This document shows positions 55,854 to 59,558 of a stretch of 64,000 nucleotides of DNA, piece by piece. The DNA is from Persephonella marina EX-H1 (GTDB lineage: Bacteria; Aquificota; Aquificia; Aquificales; Hydrogenothermaceae), in assembly GCF_000021565.1 (NCBI RefSeq), contig NC_012440.1, forward strand, positions 438,672-502,671. Reading direction: 5' to 3'. Position numbers and translations under genes: made by a program. The notes beneath the pieces are model-generated. The model worked only from the letters and a program-made list of their open reading frames with translations, had not been told where the DNA came from and ran no database searches. Numbering within the stretch: the stretch's first letter is position 1; each line of letters starts with the position of its first letter.

Positions 55854-55882
55854 TTGACAAGCACAATATACAGTGTTATCCT
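55854..55882 (+). promoter_or_regulatory. nrdB: Sigma-70 promoter of nrdB
   Basis: TTGACA and TATCCT are spaced by 17 bases. The first NrdR box lies in the spacer, so NrdR binding would block polymerase. Confidence 0.65.
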
Positions 55883-55907
55883 TAAATAAAAACACAATAT
55901 ATAGTAT
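55861..55907 (+). promoter_or_regulatory. Two NrdR boxes before nrdB
   Basis: GCACAATATACAGTGT (55861-55876) and ACACAATATATAGTAT (55892-55907) match the NrdR consensus acaCwAtATaTwgtgt. Their starts are 31 bases apart, about three turns, the usual spacing for a NrdR pair. NrdR represses RNR genes when dATP is high. nrdR itself is not in the window. Confidence 0.8.
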
Positions 55908-55928: not shown

Positions 55929-56918
55929 ATGAAAAAGCTTCAGTTCATCGGTAAAACGTCTGTTAAGGATAATATAAGATTAACAGAAAATCCAAGATAC
56001 CCTGTTTTTAAAGAGATATATACAAAACAGAAAAAGGCTGTATGGTTTCCTGAAGAGCTAAATATACAGCAGGATGTTCTTGATTACAAATCTTTAACAC
56101 CGACAGAGAAGGATCTTTTTGATACGTCTGTTGGCTATTTTGCATCCTCTGAGCTTCTTGTTCAGAATGTTCTCGGTAACGGATTTTTCCCTGTTTTAAC
56201 GGATCCTTACGCTAAGATGAGTTTTTCTACACAGATGTTTATGGAGAATATACACTCAGACTTTTTTGAGATCATACTTAACACATTTGAGATGGACAGG
56301 AAGAGAATATACAACATAACCCTTGAAGACAAACTGCTTATGGAAAAGCAGGAGCTTATAATAAGAGCTGTTGACAGAATAACATACGGAAAAGCTGATC
56401 CAGACACACTTGAAGGTAAGAAGCAGATACTGACAGCTATACTTCTTAACAATATCATTCAGGAAGGAATGTTTTTCTACTCAGCGTTTGCCCATTTCTT
56501 TGCTATGAAGGACACAGGGAAGATGAAAAATGTTGTTTCAGGGGTTGAGCTGATACTGATAGATGAGTCTCTCCACCTCCAGAACGGAATTGAAGCAATA
56601 CTCACAATAGTTGAGGAAAATCCAGAGATTGTAGATGATGAAAAGTTTGTTGAGAACATAAAGGAAACAATAATTGATGCTGTTGAGCTTGAGCTTAACT
56701 ACCTTAAAACTAAGTTCGGTGGAACAACGATCTTTGGTGTATCTTACAAGGAACTTGAGAAATACATGAAATATATCGCTGACAGAAGACTTGAGGAACT
56801 TGGGTTTGATCCACAGTTCAAGATAGATCAGAACCCGCTGAAGTTCTTGCAGAAGGAAGATGTTAAGAAACTAACCAATTTCTTTGAAGTCTCAAGCACT
56901 GAGTATACTAATTTCTAG
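55929..56918 (+). CDS. nrdB: Ribonucleotide reductase R2 subunit, class Ic-like
   Basis: A 329-aa class I R2 protein. Predicted metal ligands are E75 (SSELLV), E106 and H109 (MENIHS), E179 (IIQEGM), E213 and H216 (IDESLH). The spacing matches E. coli NrdB (84/115/118/204/238/241). Two positions differ: the first ligand is Glu instead of Asp, and the radical Tyr (H+4) is F113 (IHSDFFE). Both are the class Ic signature, where a Mn/Fe centre replaces the tyrosyl radical, as in Chlamydia. The C-terminal Tyr needed for radical transfer is present near the end (SSTEYTNF). GGAGGAG precedes the ATG. Confidence 0.92.
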   Translation: MKKLQFIGKTSVKDNIRLTENPRYPVFKEIYTKQKKAVWFPEELNIQQDVLDYKSLTPTEKDLFDTSVGYFASSELLVQNVLGNGFFPVLTDPYAKMSFSTQMFMENIHSDFFEIILNTFEMDRKRIYNITLEDKLLMEKQELIIRAVDRITYGKADPDTLEGKKQILTAILLNNIIQEGMFFYSAFAHFFAMKDTGKMKNVVSGVELILIDESLHLQNGIEAILTIVEENPEIVDDEKFVENIKETIIDAVELELNYLKTKFGGTTIFGVSYKELEKYMKYIADRRLEELGFDPQFKIDQNPLKFLQKEDVKKLTNFFEVSSTEYTNF

Positions 56919-56944: not shown

Positions 56945-57094
56945 ATGAGAGGGGAAAATCTTATAAAGCTTTCAAAAATGTTAACCCCCAGAGGACTGGG
57001 GGTGAAAGTTTCTAAAAGCCCTATATTGAAAAAGAAGCTATATGAATTAACATCTTTTCTTCCTGAAGATGTCTCACAATCTCTGAGAATTTGA
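56945..57094 (+). CDS. Possible 49-aa protein between nrdB and nrdA
   Basis: An ATG-started ORF in the nrdB-nrdA gap encodes a basic 49-aa peptide (MRGENLIKLSKMLTPRGLGV at the start, FLPEDVSQSLRI at the end). No family is recognised and there is no good ribosome site. A 7-bp GC hairpin lies inside it. It could be a real small protein, a fragment, or chance. Confidence 0.3.
   Translation: MRGENLIKLSKMLTPRGLGVKVSKSPILKKKLYELTSFLPEDVSQSLRI
56985..57002 (+). other. GC-rich hairpin in the nrdB-nrdA gap
   Basis: CCCCCAG-AGGA-CTGGGGG is a perfect 7-bp stem with a 4-base loop, strikingly GC-rich for this genome. There is no T-run, so it is not a plain terminator. It may be an RNA-processing or stability element between the two RNR genes. 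A weaker stem (AAACTTC/GAAGTTT plus Ts) just after the nrdB stop may attenuate transcription. Confidence 0.5.
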
Positions 57095-57143: not shown

Positions 57144-59558
57144 ATGCAGAGGATCGTTGTAAAAAGGGATGGAACTGAAGAAAAGTTCCAGATGAAAAAG
57201 CTTATAAATGCTATTTTTGCCCTTCTTGAGGGAATGGATATACCTGATGATTATGAGATAGTTTTCAAAGTGGCAAAGGAGCTGGATCTTAAAATACCTG
57301 AAAGAGTCACAACCCAGGAGCTAGATACACTTGTTCTGAAAGCTATAGAACAGCTGATACCAAAACATTACATATACGATACTTTAGCAGCAAAACAGCT
57401 TTTAAAGCTTATAAACAGAGAGATAGACAAGAGATTTTCCTCATTTAAGGAAGCTATTGAGTTTGGAGTGAATGAAAATCTTTACAAACCTGAACTTCTT
57501 GATTTTGATCTTGACAGGCTTGAAGATGCTTTAGATTACTCAAGGGACGCTTTACTTGATTATTTTGGTATGACGACACTGAAAGACAGGTATTTTACAA
57601 GGGACAGGGAAGGGAACATCATAGAAAAGCCTCAATGGTTCTTTATGAGAGTTGCTATGGGAATAGGTAACAACGAGGATGAGGTAATAAAGGTTTATAA
57701 CAAGATATCAAAACTTGAGTACCTCCACTCAACACCAACACTTTATAACTCAGGAACGATCACCCATCAGTATAGCTCCTGTTATGTAAACGTTATAGAT
57801 GACTCTCTTGAATCCATAATGGATAAAGCAAAGGAAACAGCATTTTTAGCGAAGTATGCAGGTGGTGTTGGAACAGATGTTACAAGAATAAGAGCCACAG
57901 GATCAAAGATACATTCTCTAAATGCAAAATCTTCGGGAGTGATACCTTTTATCAAAATATTTGATACTATTGTCAACGCTATTCAGCAGGGCGGAAGAAG
58001 AAGATCCTCACAGGTTATGTATCTCCAGCCGTGGCATCTTGATATAGACGCATTCTTAGACCTTAGAGAAACTACAGGAAACCCATATTTTAGAACACCT
58101 TCTCTAAATACTGCAGTATGGATGCCTGATGAGATAATGAGAAGAATAAAAGAGGGAGAGCCTCTATATCTTTTTGATCCTGCTGAATGTCCAGAACTTG
58201 TAACAGCATGGGGAGAAGAGTTTACGAAAAAATACTTTGAGTGTATAGAAAAAGCAGAAACAGGACATTTAAAACTGTGGAAAAAGATAGACTCAAGAGA
58301 GTGGTTTAACAGATATCTTTTCAAACTTGCAAAAACAGGTCATCCCTGGCTTACCTTTAAAGACAGACACAATGAACATAACCCCTGCCCAGAGTATGGG
58401 GTAATAAACTCAAGTAACCTTTGTACAGAGATATCAATCCCTAACTCCCCTGAATCAACCGCTGTCTGTACACTTGCTTCTGTTAATCTTGCAAAGCATC
58501 TAAATGAAGATAGGACAGATATAGACTGGGATAAGCTTAAAGACACGATAGAAACAATGGTCTTAGCCCTTGATAATATTCTTGATAAGAACTTCTATCC
58601 TTCAGAGGAATCCCGCAAGAATACTATGGATCTGAGACCTCTTGGTATTGGTCTTATGGGATTTGCAGAAACACTTGTTGAACTTGGAATACCTTATGAC
58701 AGCGATACAGCTGTTGAATTTGCAGAGAAGGTTGCAAAATTCATGAGAGATACAGCTTATAGAAAGTCTGAAGAACTTGCGAAAGAAAGAGGTCCATTCC
58801 CACATTATGAAGAGATGAAGGAAAAAGGAAAACCTTACCCATACCCACCGAGAAGAAATGCTGTTTTACTTGCTATAGCTCCGACAGCTTCCATATCAAT
58901 CATTGCAGGAACTACATCATCAATTGACAGCTACTTCTCTAACGTTTTCTCAAGGGATACACTCTCAGGTAAATTCATCGTTGTAAACAAACAGCTTATG
59001 AAAAAACTTGAAGAGCTTGATATGTGGAATGAAGAGATGGCAGAAAAGATAAAAGCACACGGTGGATCTGTTCAGTTTATAGATGAGCTTGAAGGAAAGA
59101 TAGATAAAAGACTTTTTAAAGGGGCTTATGAGATCCACCCATTCAGACAGATAGATATAGCAGCAGCATTCCAGAAGTATGTGGATCAGGCTGTTTCAAA
59201 GTCTATCTACATTGAGGAAGAACTCAGAGGAGATATGTTTGATATATACATGTATGCATGGGAGAAAGGTCTCAAATCAACATACTACTGCTTTATTGAT
59301 AAAACAGTTAAAGGTGAGAAATACACCCAGAAAGTTAACAAGAGAGGAACAAGAAGAGGTTTTGGTCTTAGAAAAGCTGCATCCGAGGAGAGTGAAACTG
59401 TAAAAACACAGACAACAGTAGAAGAGGATATTGAGCAGATAGAAAGAATGGCAAGGGAAAAATACGGAGATGAGGTTGTGGATAAAGTAAAATCAGGAAA
59501 TATAGATGCCTGTCCAACAGACCCACTTTTAAATAAAATCTGTCCAAGCTGTGAATAA
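57144..59558 (+). CDS. nrdA: Ribonucleotide reductase R1 (alpha) subunit
   Basis: An 804-aa class I R1 with N-terminal ATP-cone (IVVKRDGTEEKFQMKKLINA; one cone). The active site has YSSCYVNVIDDS, NSSNLCTEISIPN (Asn/Cys/Glu) and VCTLASVNLAKHL. The specificity-site region FAKYAGGVGTDVTRIRATGS is present. The C-terminal redox CPSCE tail reduces the active-site disulfide. GGAGG precedes the ATG. It pairs with the Mn/Fe-type NrdB; the ATP-cone gives dATP inhibition. Confidence 0.95.
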   Translation: MQRIVVKRDGTEEKFQMKKLINAIFALLEGMDIPDDYEIVFKVAKELDLKIPERVTTQELDTLVLKAIEQLIPKHYIYDTLAAKQLLKLINREIDKRFSSFKEAIEFGVNENLYKPELLDFDLDRLEDALDYSRDALLDYFGMTTLKDRYFTRDREGNIIEKPQWFFMRVAMGIGNNEDEVIKVYNKISKLEYLHSTPTLYNSGTITHQYSSCYVNVIDDSLESIMDKAKETAFLAKYAGGVGTDVTRIRATGSKIHSLNAKSSGVIPFIKIFDTIVNAIQQGGRRRSSQVMYLQPWHLDIDAFLDLRETTGNPYFRTPSLNTAVWMPDEIMRRIKEGEPLYLFDPAECPELVTAWGEEFTKKYFECIEKAETGHLKLWKKIDSREWFNRYLFKLAKTGHPWLTFKDRHNEHNPCPEYGVINSSNLCTEISIPNSPESTAVCTLASVNLAKHLNEDRTDIDWDKLKDTIETMVLALDNILDKNFYPSEESRKNTMDLRPLGIGLMGFAETLVELGIPYDSDTAVEFAEKVAKFMRDTAYRKSEELAKERGPFPHYEEMKEKGKPYPYPPRRNAVLLAIAPTASISIIAGTTSSIDSYFSNVFSRDTLSGKFIVVNKQLMKKLEELDMWNEEMAEKIKAHGGSVQFIDELEGKIDKRLFKGAYEIHPFRQIDIAAAFQKYVDQAVSKSIYIEEELRGDMFDIYMYAWEKGLKSTYYCFIDKTVKGEKYTQKVNKRGTRRGFGLRKAASEESETVKTQTTVEEDIEQIERMAREKYGDEVVDKVKSGNIDACPTDPLLNKICPSCE

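Follow-up and report, generated by a model that had tools for sequence, protein, structure and literature searches.

The genome of Persephonella marina EX-H1 encodes a class I ribonucleotide reductase (RNR) small subunit, NrdB, in which the first metal ligand is glutamate and the residue at the radical position is phenylalanine. NrdB is probably an active small subunit that would, as in class Ic, depend on a metal-centred oxidant, its Glu/Phe state having apparently been reached outside the Chlamydia-type lineage; Mn(IV)/Fe(III) is our best guess for the cofactor, judging from the residues of the metal site. The motif, its conservation, the pairing with nrdA, the length of the C-terminal tail and the family tree were all computed.

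Diagnostic residues of NrdB

The window, meaning the whole 64,000-nucleotide stretch of DNA that was analysed, belongs to a genome of 1,983,966 bases in two contigs. Its nrdB gene (55929..56918, forward strand, as are all features below) is an open reading frame of 329 amino acids plus stop, with one Pfam domain, PF00268 (220.9 bits against a cut-off of 33.6), and a metal site of the Glu/Phe, class Ic type. In the alignment with Escherichia coli NrdB and Chlamydia trachomatis R2, the first-ligand place is occupied by E75 (56151..56153), where E. coli has Asp84 and Chlamydia has glutamate, and the place of the radical tyrosine, Tyr122 of E. coli, is occupied by F113 (56265..56267), as it is by phenylalanine in Chlamydia. 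The remaining ligands are in register with both proteins: the E106-x-x-H109 pair (56244..56255); E179 (56463..56465); and E213 and H216 of the second ExxH pair, which lie with D212, the aspartate of the radical-transfer triad, at 56562..56576. W39, D212 and Y326 are in register as well, and D212 is preceded by I211, where most R2 proteins have arginine. A sequence-only reading had proposed that E75 replaces the first aspartate ligand, that F113 occupies the tyrosyl radical site and that the other ligands are intact; the alignment agrees on all of this, and the numbering of the two residues was exact. E75, F113, E106, H109, E179, E213, H216 and Y326 are invariant in 14 aligned sequences of the clade to which NrdB belongs (hereafter, the clade), and because the Glu/Phe motif is conserved across genomes, a chance origin is excluded. 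Since the class Ic-type motif is present, a radical of the Tyr122 type cannot form.

Partner subunit, predicted regulation and gene neighbourhood

The gene for the catalytic subunit, nrdA (57144..59558), lies downstream of nrdB and encodes a protein of 804 amino acids with an ATP-cone, the catalytic cysteine, the Tyr-Tyr dyad and the C-terminal cysteine pair. It retains the equivalents of Cys225, Asn437, Cys439, Glu441, Cys462, Tyr730-Tyr731 and Cys754/759 (E. coli numbers), and these key residues match E. coli in 7/7 clade sequences (that of the window and six others). On the same strand, nrdA follows nrdB in 41 of 51 clade loci, and several of the other ten end soon after nrdB. In two genomes (G033 and G030) of genus g14 of Aquificota family f2, a genus that we take to be Hydrogenobaculum-like, nrdA is not adjacent to nrdB.

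Upstream of nrdB are two palindromes (55861..55876 and, 31 bases downstream, 55892..55907) that resemble NrdR boxes, scored against the consensus ACACTATATATAGTGT; they are the only sites in the 64-kb window with four or fewer mismatches to it. Paired sites of this kind, 30-31 bases apart, precede nrdB in ten of the 11 other Hydrogenothermaceae loci examined, the remaining one (L035) having one box, and in 0/5 loci from outside the Aquificota. The P. marina genome also contains a gene for NrdR itself (159 bits; cut-off 124.65), and together the paired sites and the regulator gene support a true RNR role for NrdB.

That NrdB might instead be an R2lox-like oxidase, and not an RNR subunit, is barely credible. 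The nrdA partner and the NrdR-type sites speak against it, as does asparagine at clade position 174, which we take to be the place of the R2lox cross-link tyrosine. According to PMC3824934, R2lox proteins have neither a C-terminal tyrosine nor an R1 partner, and NrdB differs from them in both respects, having Y326 and the adjacent nrdA; in addition, Phe183 of the clade sits where R2lox has a channel alanine (PMC4118035). On the other side, R2lox also has glutamate as first ligand (PMC4118035), and three proteins labelled R2lox-like by the analysis (L164-L166) have phenylalanine at the tyrosine place.

In the gap between nrdB and nrdA, 49 codons (56945..57094) are left over from a homing-endonuclease-like gene, recognized by blastp through its similarity to L080 (69% over 45 amino acids, E 6e-19) and to L039 and L043 (53-63%). 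In these three loci, an intact homing-endonuclease-like gene of about 570 codons lies between nrdB and nrdA, and the product in L039 has a DUF7487 domain and a sub-threshold REase match. A different open reading frame of about 314-323 codons occupies the gap in L035, L048 and L078, with a sub-threshold match to LAGLIDADG_3 in L048; two invaders, seemingly unrelated, have entered the one site. The NrdA proteins of L032, L044 and L052, and those of L048, L074 and L077, carry in-frame, intein-like insertions of about 345-430 amino acids at positions corresponding to residue 428 or 215 of the window's NrdA, which has none.

Distribution of the Glu/Phe protein

PF00268 matches were found in 119 of the 136 Aquificota genomes searched, and the gene was read and scored in all 119. 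In the Hydrogenothermaceae (family f1), NrdB has Glu/Phe in 37/39 genomes; of the other two, one has Asp/Tyr and one yields a fragment that lacks both diagnostic sites and still has the C-terminus of the clade. The Asp/Tyr protein (L068, genome G077) is an E. coli-like NrdB in place of the clade's. Within family f2, Glu/Phe is found in 5/5 genomes of genus g14, and Asp/Tyr in 52/53 genomes outside it, with one fragment; family f3 (7/7) and family f5 (16/16) have Asp/Tyr throughout. The Glu/Phe NrdB is thus a family character of the Hydrogenothermaceae. Four genomes of family f5, genus g26 (G123-G126) yielded neither a class I small subunit nor a PF02867 large subunit, and their NrdD matches read through in-frame TGA or TAA codons.

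Close relatives outside the Aquificota, 67-74% identical, occur in Bacteroidota, Balneolota and KSB1, with carriers that include Mariniphaga and Fodinibius, and all 17 of these aligned sequences have Glu/Phe (L053-L056, L058, L087-L098). In the phylum of genome G138, the clade's NrdB was found in 12/296 sampled genomes (E <= 1e-40); in that of genome G136, any PF00268 match was found in 2/79 sampled genomes, and both belong to the clade. The clade's NrdB is present in nearly all members of one Aquificota family and has a scattered distribution beyond it, a pattern most likely due to horizontal transfer. Searches of phage records (3513/3513) and plasmid records (547/547) gave matches below 60% identity only, and scanning viral sequences with the clade alignment gave 55 pattern matches, none of which was confirmed, and found no relative. 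An R2 protein of Bacteroidota (L160) has glutamate as first ligand and leucine at the radical place.

The metal site had also been called sensible for an oxidant-rich vent niche. This argument is unsupported: members of the clade are also found in Bacteroidota and Balneolota, other Aquificota have Asp/Tyr, and the R2 protein of Aquifex is of class Ia with a tyrosyl radical, its enzyme activity peaking at 79 °C (PMC8772380). P. marina also encodes a class II NrdJ (L103, G000:C2:817193-818689; TIGR02504, 718.8 bits) and a class III NrdD (L104, G000:C2:271199-272926; TIGR02487, 581.7 bits), so the class I enzyme is one of three RNRs.

A short C-terminal tail

According to both alignment and census, the last codons of nrdB (56904..56918) specify Y326, the pathway tyrosine equivalent to Y356 of E. 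coli, followed by T-N-F and the stop codon. Because NrdB ends three residues past this tyrosine, the usual alpha-docking extension is missing; PMC9248007 describes residues 341-375, the corresponding tail in E. coli, as essential to the interaction of the subunits. Three residues follow the pathway tyrosine in all 33 readable Glu/Phe proteins of the Hydrogenothermaceae (four were not readable), and the g14 proteins end on the tyrosine itself in 4/4 readable cases (one was not readable). The census gives 15 residues for family f3 and 12 for family f5; the Asp/Tyr tails of family f2, left out of the census tail count because the motif did not fit, have eight residues in the sequences aligned, and the class Ic proteins of Haladaptatus and Methylocella have nine. 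Loss of the tyrosine and loss of the tail coincide in both Aquificota lineages.

The clade ends in the conserved motif NFFEVS(S/N)TEY(T/Q)N(F/Y), and 21 of the last 28 alignment columns are invariant, compared with 161/329 overall; this richness in invariant residues indicates that the end is kept by selection. We considered whether the tail might resume beyond a frameshift or be supplied by a second gene, and set this aside: the DNA past the stop codon is what is left of another gene, and where relatives have unlike DNA downstream, their proteins stop at the same residue. A naturally cut tail offers a testable case of alpha-beta contact without a docking peptide, which is relevant to inhibitors aimed at the subunit contact.

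Phylogeny of the Glu/Phe state

Trees were computed from 52 NrdB sequences, with and without the two diagnostic columns, and from 64 sequences after addition of class Id-type, R2lox-like and further Bacteroidota proteins (seven near-duplicates removed; 19 of 46 Bacteroidota sequences kept); the intein-bearing L069 was left out. The 52-sequence tree requires three changes to Glu/Phe. In it, the Chlamydia-type proteins nest among Asp/Tyr proteins from Acidithiobacillus, Acaryochloris and Teredinibacter, apart from the window's clade, with bootstrap support of 98% (96% with the diagnostic columns out; 96-100% across all three trees). In the 64-sequence tree, Glu/Phe is scattered within the Chlamydia-type group, and the nesting needs more than one change inside that group. 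With 52 sequences, AU tests reject a single clade of all 27 Glu/Phe sequences with the diagnostic columns out (p 0.003) and with both columns in (p 0.02).

That NrdB is an ordinary descendant of Chlamydia-type class Ic, split off by long-branch effects, is unlikely, but the Chlamydia-type proteins are its best matches in sequence and fold, and its clade sits on a stem of about 2.6-3 changes per site. Stems in the trees range over 2-4 changes per site, a long-branch warning that goes with weak deep nodes and modest sampling. Against common descent stand the nesting of the Chlamydia-type proteins with Asp/Tyr proteins and, subject to the long-branch caveat, the rejection by AU tests of a joint clade in both taxon sets with the trait columns out (p 0.0009 with 52 sequences; 0.002 with 64). 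Given these rejections, the tree comparisons support a separate origin of the Glu/Phe state in the window's clade, with long branches as a caveat. Inside the Aquificota, one or two origins of Glu/Phe fit the tree tests alike: joining the window's clade with g14 is not rejected (p 0.12 with 52 sequences; 0.25 with 64), and the grouping is not supported either. Hogbom 2010 may include these species. Class Ic (R2c) is polyphyletic according to Lundin 2010, as quoted in PMC3824934. If the separate origin is true, class I RNRs exchanged the tyrosyl radical for a metal-centred oxidant on more than one occasion.

Structure, second sphere and proposed mechanism

Among solved structures, 6y2n and C. 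trachomatis R2 (1syy/4d8f) come closest in sequence. An AlphaFold model built from 14 sequences is of middling quality (pLDDT 67, pTM 0.71), with residues 1-50 and 307-329 poor; its best fold match is C. trachomatis R2c (Z 28.4 over 261-289 residues, rmsd 2.5-3.4), followed by E. coli (26.3) and Aquifex (25.6), values within 1 of each other counting as tied. In the second sphere, every readable clade sequence has leucine at the place of C. trachomatis Tyr222, an activation-specific electron relay, and isoleucine at the place of the arginine before the Asp-Glu pair (mouse Arg265), which takes part in proton-coupled transfer. Both substitutions count against an Mn/Fe centre; if the clade is Mn/Fe, the activation electron must come by a route other than Tyr222, and the clade proteins could serve to find out which residues of the second sphere Mn/Fe chemistry really requires, since they keep neither of the two.

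In the absence of a radical-bearing tyrosine, the oxidizing power is probably stored in the metal pair. The sequence-only reading had proposed a Mn/Fe or dimanganese centre and no tyrosyl radical; the class Ic-type motif is real and a metal-centred oxidant sensible, but the glutamate ligand leaves the metal unfixed, in keeping with the statement in PMC4118035 that glutamate at ligand 1 does not itself fix metal choice. Judged by its residues, the NrdB centre may sensibly be taken as more likely Mn/Fe than Mn2, and C. trachomatis R2 is a known case of Mn/Fe chemistry (PMC8463856). A search for an Nramp-type Mn importer, the only type searched for, found none in the P. marina genome, which is weak evidence. 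For metal identity, redox states, electron route and docking mode, we infer the following scheme: O2 or peroxide would oxidize Mn(II)/Fe(II) to Mn(IV)/Fe(III) at E75/E106/H109-E179/E213/H216; the hole would then reach the Tyr-Tyr dyad and the catalytic cysteine of NrdA by way of W39/D212 and C-terminal Y326; and NrdB would dock to NrdA by its conserved end, with no extension past the tyrosine.

Two other metal centres come into question. A dimanganese metal-centred enzyme without tyrosine, with class Id-like chemistry, is distinctly unlikely: class Id-type proteins (L158, L159, L161-L163) do share with the clade a glutamate first ligand and the lack of arginine before Asp-Glu, but class Id keeps its tyrosine and its studied members have lysine four residues after the glutamate (PMC6754362), where the clade has phenylalanine and, at position 79, Gln/Gly (14/14 sequences), and the AU test gives a mild rejection of a grouping of the two (p 0.028, 64 sequences). 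A diiron enzyme, with a high-valent iron centre or a radical on another aromatic residue, is very unlikely; we know of no R2 with phenylalanine at this site that functions best on iron alone, which counts against it, and in its favour metal choice is unreadable from the ligands (PMC4118035). A Mn/Fe centre is our preferred assignment for NrdB.

Comparison with known ribonucleotide reductases

NrdB is not of class Ia, having E75 and F113 and not an aspartate first ligand with a radical tyrosine; the Aquifex aeolicus R2 protein (NrdBh; 7aik/7ail) comes from the same phylum and has the same fold (27% identity). Class Ib was set aside after a search for NrdI (PF07972), which gave no match in the P. 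marina genome and did match in the E. coli, B. subtilis and L. lactis controls. Class Id NrdB (NrdBi) resembles the clade in its glutamate first ligand and in having no arginine before Asp-Glu, and is known for its Mn2 cofactor (PMC6754362); it is rejected for NrdB, which has F113 and no lysine four residues after the glutamate, a lysine seen in L158, L161 and L162.

A phenylalanine site with a cut tail has already been published for phage class O, whose proteins have Phe/Leu at the radical site, end one residue past the tyrosine and lack the alpha-binding extension of about ten residues (PMC9531940); here both traits are found together in Aquificota proteins that are class I subunits of full length. 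The lengths after the tyrosine (three in NrdB, none in g14, one in class O) are close, not identical. Class O proteins of cyanophages are ferritin-like, of about 240 amino acids, with a minimal alpha subunit (412 amino acids on average; PMC9531940) that has no ATP-cone, whereas P. marina has 329 amino acids and an 804-residue NrdA with an ATP-cone. Homology was sought with one class O protein, that of S-CBP4, which showed none to the clade (hhalign probability 0.3%); in its annotated form, this protein has no tyrosine close to the C-terminus, contrary to the description in PMC9531940. Docking without a peptide is a class O question too, and heat-stable proteins from these thermophiles may be easier to handle than class O proteins, called unstable in PMC9531940. 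Literature searches found no earlier account of the phenylalanine site with a cut tail in full-length class I subunits and no paper pairing 'ribonucleotide reductase' with 'Persephonella'; pairing with 'Hydrogenothermaceae' gave only papers that appear off topic, and nothing on this RNR group was among the matches listed.

The g14 proteins (L061-L064) are like NrdB in their Glu/Phe site and cut tail, but are 30% identical to it and have tryptophan at the Tyr222 place. Among the closest known systems is class Ic (C. trachomatis R2c; 1syy, 4d8f, 4m1i), with which NrdB shares the glutamate first ligand, the phenylalanine radical site, the other ligands and the C-terminal tyrosine; of the features of class Ic, it has the R2 fold, the six ligands with E75, no radical-site tyrosine, Y326 and nrdA downstream. 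It differs from R2c in identity (26-30% over the fold match), in belonging to a separate clade, in its tail (three residues after the pathway tyrosine against about eight in the 346-residue R2c chain) and in the replacement of Tyr222 by leucine and of the arginine by isoleucine. A tentative possibility is that the clade forms a separate class I subclass, with a metal-centred oxidant independent of Chlamydia, the docking extension gone, and an altered alpha-beta contact and electron-transfer gating, which by analogy might resemble what is suspected for class O. A published network mixes Ic-like motifs among Ia-like homologues (PMC8463856), so Ic-like sequences as such were already known. NrdB is a variant of class Ic-like RNR and no new kind of system.
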